Shown one piece after another: positions 31,257 to 39,001 of a stretch of 64,000 nucleotides of DNA; the first letter of the stretch is position 1, and each line of letters starts with the position of its first letter. A model generated the notes under the pieces. That model was not told the DNA's origin and did no database searches. It saw only the letters and a program-made list of their open reading frames with translations. A program made the position numbers and the translations under genes. This DNA comes from Pseudomonas sp. DY-1 (GTDB taxonomy: Bacteria > Pseudomonadota > Gammaproteobacteria > Pseudomonadales > Pseudomonadaceae), in NCBI RefSeq assembly GCF_003626975.1, contig NZ_CP032616.1, positions 1,488,001 to 1,552,000 on the forward strand, written 5' to 3'.

Positions 31257-31558
31257 TCCCACGTTCACCCTCGGAGGATGGGCCGAGCCCGCGCGCAGGG
31301 TTTTCGCGTCCCATCCTACGGGTCACCGCCTTCGGTGATACCCGCCTCCAGTGCTACTCCCCAAGTCGCAACGCAGTCTCCGCCCGAGGCGGTAGATGCT
31401 CGGTGCAGCAGCTCAGGAAAATGTCGAACTCATCCGCCAGGCCCTTATCCAACTAATGAAGCGCTTGCCACAAGGCACCGCTCCCCGACCGGAAGCAGAT
31501 TGCGCCACATCGCCAGGGGCCGCCACGGCTATTGAGTGGCAGGCCCGGGAGGACACAG
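31257..31558. repeat. Gap with two palindromes after lpd3
   Basis: This 302-base gap holds GGATGGG (31276-31282) paired with CCCATCC (31310-31316), and right after it CGGGTCACCG (31319-31328) paired with CGGTGATACCCG (31333-31344). Both are hairpins of a repeat family different from the main REPs; neither is followed by a U tract. The last 200 bases show no supportable gene and should contain the promoter of the cytochrome gene, not identified. Confidence 0.55.
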
Positions 31559-32779
31559 ATGACGAAGTTTCTGTCTTGCTCATGCGTGTGGGCATTGCTT
31601 GCCCTGGTTGGCTGCGGCGCCGGCAGCGGCACGGATTCGGAGTCGGGGACCGCTGATAGCGAACCCGCTACGGCGGATACAGGGGTGAACGATCCCGCGA
31701 CCATCGAAGCCGGCAAGCAGATCTTCCGCTTCGACACCTTCGGCAACGAGACGCACTGGACCCAGACGTTGCGACTCCACGAGATCGTCGACAGTGAGAT
31801 CCAGCCAGTGGAAGCCTTGGCACTGGGGCTGAAGGTAGACCTCGACAAGCTGGATTTCACCAAGTTCGTGCTGAAAAACCCATTGTTCGCCAGCGGCACG
31901 CGCGAATTATTGCGGCAGGACGCCGTAGTCGGATTAAAGGCAACCTTCGACGAGAAAGGCCGCATCGCGACCCTTGGGGTGACCTGCGCGTTATGCCATT
32001 CCACCGTCGATAATGCCTTGCTCCCTGGCATCGGCCACCGGCTCGACGGCTGGCCTAACCGCGACCTCGATGTGGGCGCCATCATTGCAATGTCGGCAGC
32101 GCTGACCGCGGAGCAGAAAGCCGTCTACAAGTCGTGGGGCAAAGGCAAATACGATCCGCGCTACAACCTGGACGGCCGAAACGGGCCCGTGGTCATCCCC
32201 CCTGCCTATGGTCTGGCGGGCCTCAACCGGGTGACCTTCACCGGCGATGGCGACAACATTGCCTATTGGAACCGCTACGTCGGTGTCACTCAGATGGGCG
32301 GGCATGGCACGTTCACCGAACCACGCACGGGGGTCAGCGTCACCAATGGCAGCGACGATCTGATCAGCAGCAAGCTGCCGGCCCTGCAGGCGTACCAGTT
32401 GTCTCTGGAAGCGCCACGACCACCCGCACGCATCGATGCCGAGGCAGCGCAACACGGCAAGGTCCTGTTCGACGGCGCTGCCCGCTGCGCTACCTGCCAC
32501 AGCGGGCCCAAGTTCACTGACGCCAATACCCGACTGCATGCCCTTGCTGAAGTGGTCAGCGAGCCCGAACCCGAAGGTGCTCCCAGCTATGCCTCGCGTG
32601 GCGCGACCAAGCAGTATCGGACCTCACCGCTACGAGGCGTCTGGCAACATCCGCCGTATTTTCACAACGGCACCGCTCCAACCCTGGAAGCCGTGGTAGC
32701 GACCTACAACACCAAAAAGTCGCTCGGTTTGAGCCAGGCGGATATCGCAGATATCGCGGAATACCTGAAGTCGCTGTGA
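31559..32779 (+). CDS. Dihaem cytochrome c lipoprotein
   Basis: A 406-residue exported lipoprotein: signal with lipobox LLALVGC (residues 13-19), a low-complexity Ser/Thr/Glu/Asp linker, then a dihaem cytochrome domain with CALCH at 143-147 and CATCH at 310-314. HNGTAPTLEAVVATYN near the end is the block shared with the large dihaem peroxidase-like group. It probably reduces or senses peroxide or moves electrons in the periplasm. GGGAGGACACAG precedes the ATG at 31559. It stands alone on the plus strand and converges on the anti-sigma gene, so a link with the ECF module beyond proximity is not shown. Confidence 0.78.
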   Translation: MTKFLSCSCVWALLALVGCGAGSGTDSESGTADSEPATADTGVNDPATIEAGKQIFRFDTFGNETHWTQTLRLHEIVDSEIQPVEALALGLKVDLDKLDFTKFVLKNPLFASGTRELLRQDAVVGLKATFDEKGRIATLGVTCALCHSTVDNALLPGIGHRLDGWPNRDLDVGAIIAMSAALTAEQKAVYKSWGKGKYDPRYNLDGRNGPVVIPPAYGLAGLNRVTFTGDGDNIAYWNRYVGVTQMGGHGTFTEPRTGVSVTNGSDDLISSKLPALQAYQLSLEAPRPPARIDAEAAQHGKVLFDGAARCATCHSGPKFTDANTRLHALAEVVSEPEPEGAPSYASRGATKQYRTSPLRGVWQHPPYFHNGTAPTLEAVVATYNTKKSLGLSQADIADIAEYLKSL

Positions 32780-33021: not shown

Positions 33022-33765
33022 TCAGAACGAAAGCGCCCTGCCCAGAACATCTCCGCGCGGGTCGCCTTCGCGGCTTACCAGCGCGTAGTTGTAGCCATCC
33101 CTCGACCAGTACCGCGCCTCCAGTTCGCCGTCGCGACGCTGGCCCCTCTTCATGCTCGGATAGAGCGAGCCCGGCGCTCGCAGGTACAGGCTGACCCGTT
33201 GCCCCTGGCCATCCTCGAACAGCAACAACGCCGCGGCCCCCTGCTCCGTCACCAGCCAGCGCCCACCCACCGGGTTGAAGCCATAGGGGCTGAGATCGGG
33301 AATCCGCGCCGCGTGGCTGAAGCGCTGGTCCAGCCAGGCCTGGAGTTCTCCGGGCCGGGTCACCTGGATATCGACCACAGGACTCGCCGAAAACAGCCGG
33401 TGGGCCTGCAGGGCGTCCTGCATGGGTGGATTCGCGGCCGCGAGGCTCATGTCCCGTGCCTGCCAACCACCGATGCCACCAGCACCCAATGCCAGCACGA
33501 AGGACGCGGCCAAGGCGAGGCGCCGCTGCTTGCGCGCGTGCATCGAGCGACGTATCGCCCGGGGGTCCAGGCGCGGGTTAGGTGCCAACCCCGGACTGGC
33601 GAGTGCCGCCCGTAGCGCCTGAGCGTCGCGGCGCCAGGCTTCCACTTGCGCCGCCGCCTCAGGGTTGGCTGCCAGATAAGCCTCCACCGCCTGGCGTTGC
33701 TCAGCATCCAGCTGGCCGTCGAGATAGGCGTGCAGGTCGTCTTCACCGGGATGGAATACGTTCAT
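33022..33765 (-). CDS. Anti-sigma factor, membrane-anchored
   Basis: A 247-residue protein: N-terminal anti-sigma domain (1-75) starting FHPGEDDLHAYLDGQLD, one membrane helix (about 83-100, LALAASFVLALGAGGIGGW), and a periplasmic domain of about 145 residues. The N-terminal helix pattern fits zinc-less anti-sigma domains: the usual HxxxCxxC is absent. Its start codon overlaps the stop of the ECF sigma gene (33762-33765), so the two are translationally coupled and made in proportion. It should hold the sigma factor at the membrane until a periplasmic signal, perhaps oxidative, frees it. The signal is unknown. Confidence 0.82.
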   Translation of the reverse strand: MNVFHPGEDDLHAYLDGQLDAEQRQAVEAYLAANPEAAAQVEAWRRDAQALRAALASPGLAPNPRLDPRAIRRSMHARKQRRLALAASFVLALGAGGIGGWQARDMSLAAANPPMQDALQAHRLFSASPVVDIQVTRPGELQAWLDQRFSHAARIPDLSPYGFNPVGGRWLVTEQGAAALLLFEDGQGQRVSLYLRAPGSLYPSMKRGQRRDGELEARYWSRDGYNYALVSREGDPRGDVLGRALSF

Positions 33766-34268
33766 TTGAGTACCCGAAGCTGAGGGTTGGACATCTCGCC
33801 CTCGGCCAGTTCGCGCAGCGCCTTGCGCGCGCGGGACAGCCTGGACATCACGGTGCCGATGGGGATTGCCAGGGTTTCAGCGATCTCCTTGTAGCTGAGC
33901 CCTTCGACGCTCACCAGCAGCAACAGCGCACGCTGCTCCGCCGGCAGCCGGCCAAAGGCTTCCAGGGTGGCCTGGTTGACCACGAGGTCCTCGGTGGACG
34001 GCGCTTCCTCACTACGCGCGCCGAAGAACTCCAGCAGCCGCGCATGACGTCGGGCGCGGCGCTGACCATCGAGGAACTGCCGGTAGAGGATGGAAAACAA
34101 CCAGGCGCGCAGGTTGCCGTCGCCCTTGCTGCTCCAGCGGGAAAGCGCTCGTTCCAGTGTCGCCTGGACCAGGTCGTCGGCACTGCTGGCATTGCGCGTC
34201 AGCCACAGAGCAAAACGCCGCAGTCGCTGTAACAACTCCCGCAGTTCCGCGTCTTCAATCATGTTCAT
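33762..34268 (-). CDS. ECF-family RNA polymerase sigma factor
   Basis: A 168-residue extracytoplasmic-function sigma factor. Region 2 (about 10-75) has LTRNASSADDLVQATLERAL and the promoter-melting part LFSILYRQFLDGQRRARRH. Region 4 (about 108-160) has LLLLVSVEGLSYKEIAETLAIPIGTVMSRLSRARKALRE. It is divergent from the catalase-b561 genes and followed by its anti-sigma gene. Two ATGs lie close (34268 and 34262); I use the first. The symmetric promoter at 34310-34365 points to autoregulation and control of the divergent catalase operon. P. putida and Caulobacter have similar ECF-catalase-b561 clusters. Confidence 0.87.
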   Translation of the reverse strand: MNMIEDAELRELLQRLRRFALWLTRNASSADDLVQATLERALSRWSSKGDGNLRAWLFSILYRQFLDGQRRARRHARLLEFFGARSEEAPSTEDLVVNQATLEAFGRLPAEQRALLLLVSVEGLSYKEIAETLAIPIGTVMSRLSRARKALRELAEGEMSNPQLRVLK

Positions 34269-34309
34269 AGCCAGTTCGTGTGCCGCTCTTGCCAAGGGTG
34301 CGACGGGTA

Positions 34310-34365
34310 GACGCGCGAAGCAGGATTTTATTCCCGGCCGGGAATAAAGGTCGCCCGCCTGCGTC
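34310..34365. promoter_or_regulatory. Mirror-image divergent ECF promoters around a 22-bp palindrome
   Basis: A perfect palindrome at 34327-34348 has arms TTTATTCCCGG and CCGGGAATAAA. It places GGGAATAAA on both strands. On the plus strand GGGAATAAA (34340-34348) is followed after 13 bases by CGTC (34362-34365), towards the catalase gene. On the minus strand GGGAATAAA (34335-34327) is followed after exactly 13 bases by CGTC (34313-34310), towards the sigma gene. GGAATA with a downstream CGTC is a known form of ECF promoter, so the palindrome is most simply two overlapping -35 elements. Start sites would lie near 34373 and 34302. Confidence 0.75.
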
Positions 34366-34407
34366 ATACCGGCTCATGGACAAGGGCATATCGCCCGGGA
34401 GTATCGC

Positions 34408-35466
34408 ATGAGCAAGGCAACACCCAAGGGATTAGACCTGGCGGCACGGCTGGCCGTGATCAGCCTGACCATTGGCGGCCTGGCAGCAGGCTTCGCCTAT
34501 GCCGCCGGCTGGATCGGCGGCGAACGTCTGACGCCACAACAAATCATCGACGCCTTCGAGGCCAACGCCGGGAAGTTTCCCGGCTACCGCAAGAACCACG
34601 CGAAAGGCATCTGCATTACCGGGCACTTCGAGAGCAGCGGCCAAGCGACAAGCCTGTCCCGCGCCAGCGTATTCGCGCCCGGCAAAGTGCCGGTGATCGG
34701 TCGCCTGGCCATTGGCGGGAGCAATCCGCACGTACCGGACGCCGGCGTTCCGGTCCGCAGCATGGCCCTGCTCTTCCAGCTACCCGGTGGAGAGCAGTGG
34801 CGCACTGGCATGAACTCTTTCCCAGTGTTGCCGGTAGCCACTCCGGAAGCGTTCTACGAACAGGTATTGGCCTCGCGTCCCGACCCCGCTACCGGCAAGC
34901 CGGACCCGGCAAAGATGCAGGCATTCTTCGCCGCCCACCCGGAAAGTACTGCCTTCCGCCAATGGGCCCAGACCGCGAAACCCAGCAACAGCTTCGCCAA
35001 CGTCGCCTACAACGGCGTCAATGCCTTCCGCCTGGTGGATGCCGACGATAATGGCCACTACGTGCGCTGGTCGATGCAGCCCGAGACGCCCTTTGAACCA
35101 ATTGGCGAAGCCGGTAACGACCCGGAGTTTCTCAGTCATGACCTGCAGCAGCGCCTCTCCCAGGGCCCCCTGCGCTGGCATCTGATACTGACTTTGGCCG
35201 ACCTCGGGGACCCCACCCACGACGCAACTCGCCAATGGCCGGCCGATCGCAAGCAGGTGGACGCCGGCACCCTGGTGGTGGAAAGCGCAGAATCTCAGGA
35301 CACCGGCGCCTGCCGCGACATCAACTACGACCCACTGGTGTTGCCCGGCGGCATCGAGGCCTCGGACGACCCGATTCTCGCCGCGCGCTCGGCCGCCTAT
35401 GCCGTGTCCTACAACCGCCGCACCCGTGAAGGTGCGCCACACCCCGAGCAAGGAGCCCAGCCATGA
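34408..35466 (+). CDS. SrpA-type catalase-family peroxidase
   Basis: A 352-residue protein of the SrpA catalase-related subfamily, anchored by an N-terminal helix (about 12-34) so that the haem domain is periplasmic. YRKNHAKGICITGHFESSG (about 60-78) gives the distal histidine and the family block; the end ARSAAYAVSYNRR gives the proximal-tyrosine region. Family members are small haem peroxidases with weak or no catalase activity that need an external reductant. The next gene is a cytochrome b561 whose start overlaps this stop (ATGA), a natural electron donor. An ECF promoter lies upstream. Confidence 0.88.
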   Translation: MSKATPKGLDLAARLAVISLTIGGLAAGFAYAAGWIGGERLTPQQIIDAFEANAGKFPGYRKNHAKGICITGHFESSGQATSLSRASVFAPGKVPVIGRLAIGGSNPHVPDAGVPVRSMALLFQLPGGEQWRTGMNSFPVLPVATPEAFYEQVLASRPDPATGKPDPAKMQAFFAAHPESTAFRQWAQTAKPSNSFANVAYNGVNAFRLVDADDNGHYVRWSMQPETPFEPIGEAGNDPEFLSHDLQQRLSQGPLRWHLILTLADLGDPTHDATRQWPADRKQVDAGTLVVESAESQDTGACRDINYDPLVLPGGIEASDDPILAARSAAYAVSYNRRTREGAPHPEQGAQP

Positions 35467-36023
35467 GCGCACCGACCCATTTCAATCCGTTGCTGCGTGT
35501 ACTGCACTGGCTGATGGCGATCCTCTTGCTGGCCATGCTGTTCATTGGCGTCAGCATGGTGGGCGACCTGTCCCCCCGCCACAGCTTACTGATTGCCGTG
35601 CACAAGCCTCTGGGCCTGGTGCTTCTGGTGCTGGTGCTGATTCGCCTGGCTGTGCGCCTGGCCCGCCCCGTGCCAGAGCTGCCCAGCGACATGCCCGGCT
35701 GGCAGCAGAGGATCGCCAAGCTTTCGCACCTGCTGCTCTATGCCCTGATGTTCGCCTTGCCGTTGGTGGGCTGGGCCATGCAATCGGCGGGCGGTTATCC
35801 GCTGGTGCTCCACGAGTCCCTGCTACTGCCGCCCATCGTCTCGCAGGACGCGCAGCTCTATGCCCTGTTGCGCCTGGCCCACACTGTACTGGCGTACCTG
35901 CTGTTCATCAGCATCCTGGCGCACCTGGCGGCGGCCCTCTACCACGCGCTCATCCGCAGGGATGACGTGCTCTCGAGCATGACCACCGGCAGCGGCATCC
36001 CTTCGATGCCCGATGGTCAGTAG
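35463..36023 (+). CDS. Cytochrome b561
   Basis: A 186-residue inner-membrane dihaem cytochrome b561 (YodB/CybB family) with four hydrophobic helices. Histidines suited to haem ligation are seen in FNPLLRVLHWLMA (helix 1), LLIAVHKPLGL (helix 2) and RLAHTVLAYLLF (helix 4), with another in HLAAALYHAL. It should pass electrons from the quinone pool to a periplasmic partner, here most likely the SrpA-type peroxidase encoded just upstream with a four-base overlap. Confidence 0.9.
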   Translation: MSAPTHFNPLLRVLHWLMAILLLAMLFIGVSMVGDLSPRHSLLIAVHKPLGLVLLVLVLIRLAVRLARPVPELPSDMPGWQQRIAKLSHLLLYALMFALPLVGWAMQSAGGYPLVLHESLLLPPIVSQDAQLYALLRLAHTVLAYLLFISILAHLAAALYHALIRRDDVLSSMTTGSGIPSMPDGQ

Positions 36024-36068: not shown

Positions 36069-36326
36069 ATGAAAACCCTTGTAGTCGCCTTGAGCCTCAG
36101 CCTTGTCTCCACCGTCGCCCTTGCCGCCAATACGGGCCAGAGCGCACCGCCGGTTACTCAATACGAGTACGGCGTGCACCTGGATATCGCCCGGGTCCTG
36201 GAAATGACCGACCTGTCGACTTTCTGCGGCATCGGGCCGGCACGCATGACCTACGAAGACAGCCAGATGCAGACTAAGACCCTGGAGTACCTGGTCTGGG
36301 GCACCGGCTGCAAGAACGACTACTGA
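36069..36326 (+). CDS. DUF2790 family exported protein
   Basis: An 85-residue protein with a cleavable signal peptide (about 1-20, ending VALAA) and a short mature part of the DUF2790 family, common in Pseudomonas and of unknown function. Marks are YGVHLDIARVLEMTD, CGIGPARMTYEDSQ and the final LEYLVWGTGC, with two cysteines likely to form a disulfide. CAGCAGGAGAATCCACC precedes the ATG. It lies 45 bases after the b561 gene on the same strand and may be co-transcribed with the ECF-controlled genes. Some family members in P. aeruginosa respond to metals, which is not tested here. Confidence 0.82.
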   Translation: MKTLVVALSLSLVSTVALAANTGQSAPPVTQYEYGVHLDIARVLEMTDLSTFCGIGPARMTYEDSQMQTKTLEYLVWGTGCKNDY

Positions 36327-37900: not shown

Positions 37901-39001
37901 ATGACCCAGCGCAGATCACCCGTGGAGCCGGGCGAAGCGGTGCCCTGGTTCACCAGCAGCACCCCTAGCCGCGAGCGTTTCACCTTCGACACCGCAGCCG
38001 GACGCTACATCGTCCTGAGCTTTCTCGGCTCGACGTCAGACCCGACGGCATCCCGCGTACTCACAGACCTGCTTGCGCGCCGCGAATATTTCAACGACGA
38101 CCAGGCGAGTTTCTTCGGCGTCATCGTCGACCCGCGCGACCGCGACCAGCAGCGCATCCGCGATCTACTGCCAGGCGTTCGCTTCTTCTGGGACATCGAC
38201 CGCACAATCTGCAACCTCTACGGCGTCCAGCGGGAAAATGGCGCGATTCGCCAGATGACCTATGTGCTCGACCCGCGGCTGCGGGTGATTGCGGTGCTGC
38301 CTATCGCCACGGGTGGCGAAGGCCATGTCGATAACGTCCTCGCCCTGCTCCAGGCGCAGGACCCCGTCCCTGCACCGGCTACCGCCCAGCCTCAGGCGCC
38401 GGTCCTGGTGATCCCGCGCATCTTCGAACCCGCCCTGTGCCAGAAACTGATCGATTACTACGAGCGTCAGGGCGGAAGCGAATCCGGCTATATGATCGAA
38501 CGCGACGGCATGACGGTCGAAGTCCTCAAGCACGAACACAAGCGCCGCCGCGATTGCGCATTGGAGGACGAGCAATTGCGCCAGACCTGCATGCACCGCA
38601 TCACCACGCGACTGATCCCCGAACTGCTGAAGGCCTTCCAATTCAACGCCACACGCATGGAGCGCTACCTGGTCGCCTGTTACGACGCCGCGGAAGGCGG
38701 CCACTTCCGCCCCCACCGCGACAACACCACCAAGGGCACCGCACACCGCCGCTTCGCCGTCTCCCTGTTCCTCAACAGCGGCGAGTACGAAGGCGGCCAA
38801 CTGCGCTTCCCGGAATTCGGCCGCAGCCTCTACTGCGCCCCCACGGGCGGCGCCGTCGTGTTCTCCTGCTCGCTGCTGCACGAGGCCACGCCCGTCACGC
38901 AAGGCCGCCGTTACATGTTCCTGCCCTTCCTCTATGACGAAGAGGCCCGGCGCATTCGCGAAGAAAACCAGCAGTACCTGGCCAGTCAGGCCGAGCAGTG
39001 A
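37901..39001 (+). CDS. Redoxin-prolyl 4-hydroxylase-type 2OG oxygenase fusion
   Basis: A 366-residue soluble protein. Residues about 8-150 resemble an AhpC/TSA-type thioredoxin fold (PVEPGEAVPWF, IVLSFLGST, a domain end with YGVQ and YVLDPRLRVIAV), but the position of the peroxidatic cysteine in the SFLGSTSDP segment is not a cysteine. Residues about 165-355 are a 2-oxoglutarate/Fe(II) oxygenase of the prolyl 4-hydroxylase family: iron ligands in HFRPHRD (His272, Asp274) and LLHEA (His327), and the 2OG arginine in QGRRYMF. The enzyme should hydroxylate a protein or small molecule; the substrate is unknown. AAAGGAGACAACC precedes the ATG. Confidence 0.82.
   Translation: MTQRRSPVEPGEAVPWFTSSTPSRERFTFDTAAGRYIVLSFLGSTSDPTASRVLTDLLARREYFNDDQASFFGVIVDPRDRDQQRIRDLLPGVRFFWDIDRTICNLYGVQRENGAIRQMTYVLDPRLRVIAVLPIATGGEGHVDNVLALLQAQDPVPAPATAQPQAPVLVIPRIFEPALCQKLIDYYERQGGSESGYMIERDGMTVEVLKHEHKRRRDCALEDEQLRQTCMHRITTRLIPELLKAFQFNATRMERYLVACYDAAEGGHFRPHRDNTTKGTAHRRFAVSLFLNSGEYEGGQLRFPEFGRSLYCAPTGGAVVFSCSLLHEATPVTQGRRYMFLPFLYDEEARRIREENQQYLASQAEQ

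Follow-up and report, generated by a model that had tools for sequence, protein, structure and literature searches.

Genes and promoter boxes at the divergent locus

Two sets of genes diverge from a short intergenic region in the 64,000-nucleotide stretch of Pseudomonas sp. DY-1 DNA analysed here (the window). On the minus strand lies a gene for an ECF sigma factor (33762–34268; 168 amino acids from the ATG at 34268), with matches to Pfam Sigma70_r4_2 and Sigma70_r2 and to NCBIfam sigma70-ECF; its best NCBIfam match, PRK12511, is below that model's cut-off. The end of this gene is overlapped by a putative anti-sigma factor gene (33022–33765, minus strand), whose product has weak NCBIfam anti-sigma matches below cut-off and no Pfam match; its translation contains no cysteine and, judged by eye, one hydrophobic stretch. 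On the plus strand are genes for a catalase-family heme protein (34408–35466; Pfam Catalase, 3e-22), probably exported to judge by eye from its N-terminal hydrophobic segment, and for a cytochrome b561 (35463–36023; PF01292, 1.8e-31), which overlaps the catalase stop codon. A DUF2790 gene (36069–36326, plus strand; PF10976) follows 45 nt after the b561 gene, and is possibly the last gene of this operon. At another locus (L117) a DUF2790 gene is the divergent neighbor of the orthologous ECF gene, behind a CGTA-type promoter, so DUF2790 proteins may belong to the same stress response. Farther from the intergenic region, the product of 37901–39001 joins an AhpC/TSA-like domain and a 2OG-Fe(II) oxygenase domain in one protein, and a plus-strand gene at 31532–32779, facing the end of the anti-sigma gene, has weak cytochrome c peroxidase/MauG-like matches.

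Between the sigma factor and catalase genes, positions 34327–34348 read TTTATTCCCGGCCGGGAATAAA, a perfect 22-bp palindrome whose arms (34327–34337 and 34338–34348) match at 100% in an inverted-repeat search. Around it, each strand carries GGGAATAAA-N13-CGTC when the sequence is read directly, so that the palindrome and the CGTC 13 bases off on either strand are as originally described. The plus-strand copy supplies the putative −35 box (34340–34348) and −10 box (34362–34365) of a catalase–b561 promoter, and the minus-strand copy those of a sigma/anti-sigma promoter (34327–34335 and 34310–34313). The −35 boxes had been described as overlapping, but they abut, with GGCC (34336–34339) in between: the boxes are 4 bp apart, and their GGAAT cores 6 bp. 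The two CGTC boxes are separate and outward-pointing, with 48 bp between them. If transcription begins 10 nt downstream of CGTC, as mapped for sorT in Sinorhizobium meliloti (PMC6180224, Table 1), the predicted start is near 34375 for the catalase–b561 operon and would be near 34300 for the sigma/anti-sigma operon.

Both the boxes and the gene order resemble those of the S. meliloti ECF26 sigma factors RpoE1 and RpoE4, which act in the sulfite response and are encoded sigma first and anti-sigma second (PMC6180224, PMC3511301). Start-site-mapped promoters in that species include GGGAATAAA...GTGTC for the operon of rpoE1 and GGAAT-N16-CGTC for sorT, and the ECF26 consensus is given as GGAATA at −35 with a −10 element containing GT (PMC6180224). 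Anti-sigma genes of the ECF26 group are expressed along with the sigma gene, and their products have an N-terminal anti-sigma domain, a single membrane span, and a C-terminal domain in the periplasm. This locus has GGAATA-N15-CGTC on either side, orthologous loci have GGAAT-N16-CGTC, and the anti-sigma gene (33022–33765) lies just downstream of the sigma gene, overlapping its stop codon. By promoter type, the DY-1 sigma factor would thus be ECF26-like. The known targets differ: sulfite oxidase and others in S. meliloti, catalase and b561 here. The available portions of the two S. meliloti papers describe no abutting divergent ECF promoters (PMC6180224, PMC3511301).

Occurrence of the promoter pair

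Such an arrangement is not expected by chance. The composite GACG-N16-ATTCC-N0-40-GGAAT-N16-CGTC did not occur in 200 first-order simulated 64-kb windows; GGAATA-N15-CGTC alone occurred at 0.035 per simulated window, counting both strands; and 22-bp perfect palindromes numbered one in the window vs. none in 30 simulated ones. Across the whole DY-1 genome, within the spacings searched, GGAATAAA is carried only by the two sites at this locus. A larger regulon in this genome was considered and dropped: GGAATA-N14-16-CGTC has 24 matches, against 12 for a reversed control, and GGAATAAA is confined to the locus pair. The stricter composite GACG-N15-TATTCC-N0-30-GGAATA-N15-CGTC was found in 7 of 398 genomes of the phylum and 2 of 367 of the class (both counts including the window's genome), and in none of 60 genomes of one further genus; the reversed control gave no match in any of these scans. 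Every composite match outside the window has an ECF gene adjoining the pair.

Both promoters are kept in all 18 genomes searched within the genus, with 16 nt between GGAAT and CGTC on both sides apart from a single N17, on one side in one genome. Among Pseudomonadaceae, the ECF gene was detected at E ≤ 1e-30 in 179 of 398 genomes, and 90 loci were read, a non-random selection of the 30 best-scoring ones and 60 others chosen by hand among the matches listed. The sigma promoter (GACG-N16-ATTCC) occurs in every one of the 90; 77 have a divergent catalase gene, 76 of them with both promoters in exact form, the catalase-side −35 box included; at the one exception (L119), the opposite −35 box has decayed. 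In a second family (f191, apparently the Burkholderiaceae), the ECF gene was found at E ≤ 1e-35 in 50 of 299 genomes and all 50 loci were read: both promoters are present, again with the catalase-side −35 box, in 40/40 loci that have the catalase gene. A collection of named organisms gave 195 catalase relatives, of which the best 80 were taken further. An ECF gene lies within 350 bp in 14 of these 80, all 14 with the pair; six belong to the window's own genus and were already counted, and eight are new (Ps. capeferrum, Achromobacter, two Bordetella, three Luteibacter, and Modicisalibacter). None of the other 66 named catalase loci has the pair: in 30 there is an ECF gene (42–46% identity) more than 1 kb away, and in 36 no ECF gene was detected.

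In sum, 124 of 125 loci with divergent ECF and catalase genes (77 + 40 + 8) carry the pair. GGAAT and CGTC are separated by 16 nt on the catalase side in 123/124 and on the sigma side in 124/124, the latter spacing being demanded by the scan, which recovered all of the 124 loci supplied to it. The original prediction was of two mirror-image ECF promoters, one for the sigma operon and one for the catalase–b561 operon, with the same symmetric arrangement to be looked for at orthologous ECF–catalase loci; it is there, CGTC boxes and spacing included, in distantly related organisms. Judged by this conservation, both promoters are real.

Of 23 loci with a neighbor other than a catalase gene, 20 lack the pair. 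The 13 such loci in the Pseudomonadaceae (no catalase gene within 1.5 kb) all keep the sigma promoter; ten lack an opposite promoter, and in the remaining three an opposite promoter with CGTA as its −10 box precedes DUF2790 or SnoaL-like genes. An absolute statement, that no divergent promoter occurs without the catalase gene, was therefore given up: it holds (0/13) for −10 boxes of CGTC or CGTT only, and the three CGTA promoters came to light in a wider scan. In f191 the pair is present in none of the ten loci without catalase, six of which also lack an exact sigma promoter, five of these having a near match. With the pair present beside catalase and mostly absent elsewhere, the second promoter tracks the gene it should serve. 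More distant ECF matches, at class level (40–47% identity), were read at 29 of 39 loci with 1.5-kb flanks, and by tblastn none has this catalase. At two of these distant loci (L168, L172) the ECF gene has a divergent pair with CGTT as −10 box and a gap of 26 bp; the neighbor encodes a long acidic-repeat protein, subtilase/protease-like by eye, a layout that recalls that of RpoE6 and a serine protease noted for ECF26 (PMC6180224). At L075, L079, L082, L086, and the similar loci of group g14, the place of catalase is taken by a long gene whose start looks, by eye, like that of a non-ribosomal peptide synthetase; the g14 loci keep the sigma promoter, and an opposite promoter was not found in them.

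Promoter spacing and upstream A/T content

The distance between the two GGAAT cores is 4–9 bp (compact) in 37 and 25–46 bp (wide) in 87 of the 124 loci. Gaps fall at 4–9, 25–30, and 34–38 bp, with one of 46; none of the 124 catalase loci is in the range 10–24. A strict rule (4–9 or 25–46 bp, and nothing between) is weakened by gaps of 18 (L123, L124) and 19 (L362) at other ECF loci, so the empty zone is a tendency and not a law. On a tree made by a quick method, covering 94 of the 124 loci (30 of the 40 f191 loci were left out as near duplicates), the compact and wide forms switch three times, and the starred branches force three. Perfect palindromes of at least 20 bp occur in six of the 37 compact loci, and in the other 31 they reach no more than 6 bp; on these comparisons the perfect palindrome of the window is incidental, an instance of two mirrored boxes between which the filler happens to be symmetric. 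Compact loci also conserve the stretch just 3′ of the catalase-side CGTC (34368–34377 in the window, ACCGGCTCAT), perhaps a discriminator or an early-transcript element.

Origin of the pair by inverted duplication of one promoter was considered and set aside. The spacers within a locus are only marginally more alike than those of different loci in compact Pseudomonadaceae (6.04 vs. 5.53, with values as high in 16 of 1000 shuffles), and likeness within a locus is not clear in f191 (110 of 1000) or in wide Pseudomonadaceae (321 of 1000).

Upstream of GGAAT, with positions counted from its first G, the highest A/T content is found at about −11 to −17 in both compact and wide loci, and the peak is broader, at about −12 to −24, in single promoters. 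The A/T fraction at −17 to −11 (plus/minus side) is 0.86/0.82 in compact Pseudomonadaceae and 0.95/0.95 in Luteibacter; it is 0.70–0.98 in the wide groups and 0.65 in single promoters, where the contrast is modest (0.65 vs. 0.42 and 0.53). The single-promoter set had 17 loci, three of which were later found to have an opposite CGTA promoter; group averages use the 14 strict ones. No peak is seen in 48 distinct chance matches from the window's genome (those genome-scan sites whose DNA was returned), which have 35–47% A/T at each position. The tract is weak on the plus side in Bordetella/Achromobacter (0.52; three loci) and on the minus side in Modicisalibacter (0.57; one locus), and one single-promoter locus (L130) has none; on the plus side in f191, A/T content is high outside the tract too (0.68 at −7 to −1, 0.57 at −30 to −24). 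At positions 8–10, just after GGAATAAA, A/T fractions are 0.50 and 0.65 in compact, 0.12 and 0.30 in wide, and 0.43 in single promoters.

The source of the tract depends on the architecture. Many wide loci have a single central A/T tract that serves the promoters to its left and right; where the layout is compact, the filler is rich in G and C, and the opposite −35 box itself forms the tract. For the window, this puts the tract at −9 to −16 from the catalase-side GGAAT and at −9 to −14 from the sigma-side one, a little closer than the usual peak, and the A/T part of the plus-strand −35 box would fall at about −43 to −48 of the sigma promoter, if the predicted start is right. UP elements, the binding sites for the alpha-CTD of RNA polymerase, are A/T-rich and lie farther upstream than the −35 box, between about −40 and −60. 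For a start 10 nt after CGTC, −11 to −17 from GGAAT corresponds to about −45 to −51, inside this range, and an A/T tract upstream of the −35 box is present throughout save at L130 and in the weak groups just named. In E. coli, Rhodius and co-workers obtained activity from ECF promoters of GC-rich genomes once an A/T-rich UP element had been added (PMC3817407).

Since the opposite −35 box of a compact locus falls about where the A/T tract sits elsewhere, each box may act as the UP element of the other promoter, a tentative reading, on the doubtful side. Because the opposite box itself supplies the A/T content of the compact loci, the tract agrees in position but is not independent proof. If the reading were correct, one short symmetric element would hold four functional sites and couple the two operons in cis, and both promoters would lose strength if the A/T part of one −35 box were exchanged for other sequence. 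The wide form would then be an alternative solution, with one central A/T tract common to both promoters, and evolution would switch between the two layouts, mostly avoiding the distances between.

Possible modes of regulation

The arrangement could be explained by a single ECF26-like sigma factor, restrained by the anti-sigma factor whose gene comes next. This sigma factor would transcribe its own operon and, divergently, that of catalase and cytochrome b561, each from a GGAAT-N16-CGTC promoter of its own, the two promoters lying back to back. Once released, it would raise both operons together, giving positive feedback along with a peroxide-defence output. To judge from the conserved boxes, the two are very probably promoters of this sigma factor; co-induction in DY-1, as opposed to a toggle, is likely; and the two propositions taken jointly still make a rather likely account. 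In the compact form, the A/T part of each −35 box would sit about 9–16 bp upstream of the other GGAAT, and the likeliest job of this geometry, if it has any, would be the cis coupling, with each −35 box serving also as an UP-type alpha-CTD contact for the other promoter. Crowding of polymerases could set a limit at high activity, where competition between them is possible, as known from other settings.

The nearest expression data appear to be for divergent catalase (BCAL3477) and sigma factor (BCAL3478) genes of Burkholderia cenocepacia, which are probably orthologous to the present loci, going by their annotation and divergence and not by their own sequence. In biofilms expression of both genes climbs jointly as H2O2 exposure is prolonged: at 15, 30, and 60 min, qPCR gave 1.7, 6.5, and 23.1 for BCAL3477 and NS, 5.5, and 16.6 for BCAL3478, and NaOCl induced neither (NS) (PMC2830190). 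The authors call the patterns highly similar, and think the catalase trigger indirect, from its late timing (PMC2830190). The gene layout is shared with DY-1, but likely relatives of this pair are of the wide type, with 25–26 bp between cores vs. 6 here, and the parts of that report dealing with the pair name no ECF promoter for it (PMC2830190).

Competition had been proposed originally: two polymerases would compete at the −35 site, giving a toggle or balance between regulator and effector. In the strong form of this proposal, expression of the sigma factor and of the effector would exclude and balance each other. Cores 4–9 bp apart would indeed leave little room for two holoenzymes, and there are precedents in Pseudomonas syringae, where RNAP-HrpL at hrpJ occludes control sites of hrpL (PMC5263251), and in the bidirectional promoters of E. 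coli, which compete when one direction is strongly activated (PMC12825309). At basal activity, however, the E. coli promoters did not compete (PMC12825309); orthologous loci keep the pair at gaps of 25–46 bp, so exclusion is not a required feature; and the same sigma factor and signal probably act on both sides, for which joint induction is expected. With the B. cenocepacia pair co-induced as well (PMC2830190), a toggle is unlikely. The palindrome could also be the operator of a dimeric repressor or activator, with the CGTC boxes coincidental, since dimer sites commonly take the form of perfect palindromes like this one of 22 bp. The half-sites are not a constant distance apart, however, the gap varying between 4 and 46 bp over 124 loci, which excludes a rigid dimer operator; a half-site also stands alone before sigma genes with no divergent partner, and CGTC keeps a fixed distance on both sides. 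An operator is thus improbable in the extreme.

Two promoters of the same sigma factor might simply be close together, in a compact geometry without a function of its own, a reading that departs from the preferred one on the geometry only and has a substantial chance of being right, if somewhat short of even. The loci are related and their tree needs only three compact/wide changes, which counts against the preferred account; lineages differ in their gap, which means that no one geometry is required, and intermediate gaps of 18 and 19 bp exist. Against a functionless geometry, the gaps cluster, with the range 10–24 empty among the 124 although the compact form has been gained or lost more than once, and the A/T tract lies at a similar distance in all three architectures.

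The locus has partial likenesses in other known systems. In the P. syringae HrpL–hrpJ region, too, the presence of an ECF holoenzyme on one of two divergent promoters influences the other, but there the promoter influenced is of the sigma54 type and is repressed, whereas both promoters look ECF-type here (PMC5263251). Bidirectional promoters of E. coli likewise engage polymerase in two orientations on symmetric DNA; they have one common −10 region with −35 elements on either side, unlike the abutting −35 and outward −10 boxes of this locus (PMC12825309), where separate CGTC boxes take the place of the common pseudo-symmetric −10 element by which Warman and co-workers define the class. No description of such a divergent ECF promoter pair was found in a search of open-licence papers. 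The parts are of known kinds; what is new is the abutting layout and the possible reciprocal use of −35 boxes.

The layout is kept in several distant bacterial groups, where it probably makes the two outputs rise together, and it connects the ECF/anti-sigma/catalase/b561 module, which is widespread but has been little studied, with a concrete switch made of two promoters. It also raises a general point, that a promoter could have a neighbor's −35 box as its upstream contact. If so, the spacing of divergent promoters in GC-rich genomes could be read as coupling and not as mere crowding, and symmetric ECF pairs would be compact two-output parts.

Two observations from the motif scans concern other loci. 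In genomes G016 and G003 (L212 and L216), a GGAATAA–CGTC site lies 90–113 nt before a small secreted-repeat gene, possibly a further target of this sigma type; the L216 protein matches PF03640 (Lipoprotein_15), and that of L212 is alike by eye. In G011 (C1, 3253460–3276078), four identical GGAATAACGTTCGTGTCATCGCGTC sites occur about 7.5 kb apart, which suggests a large tandem repeat.
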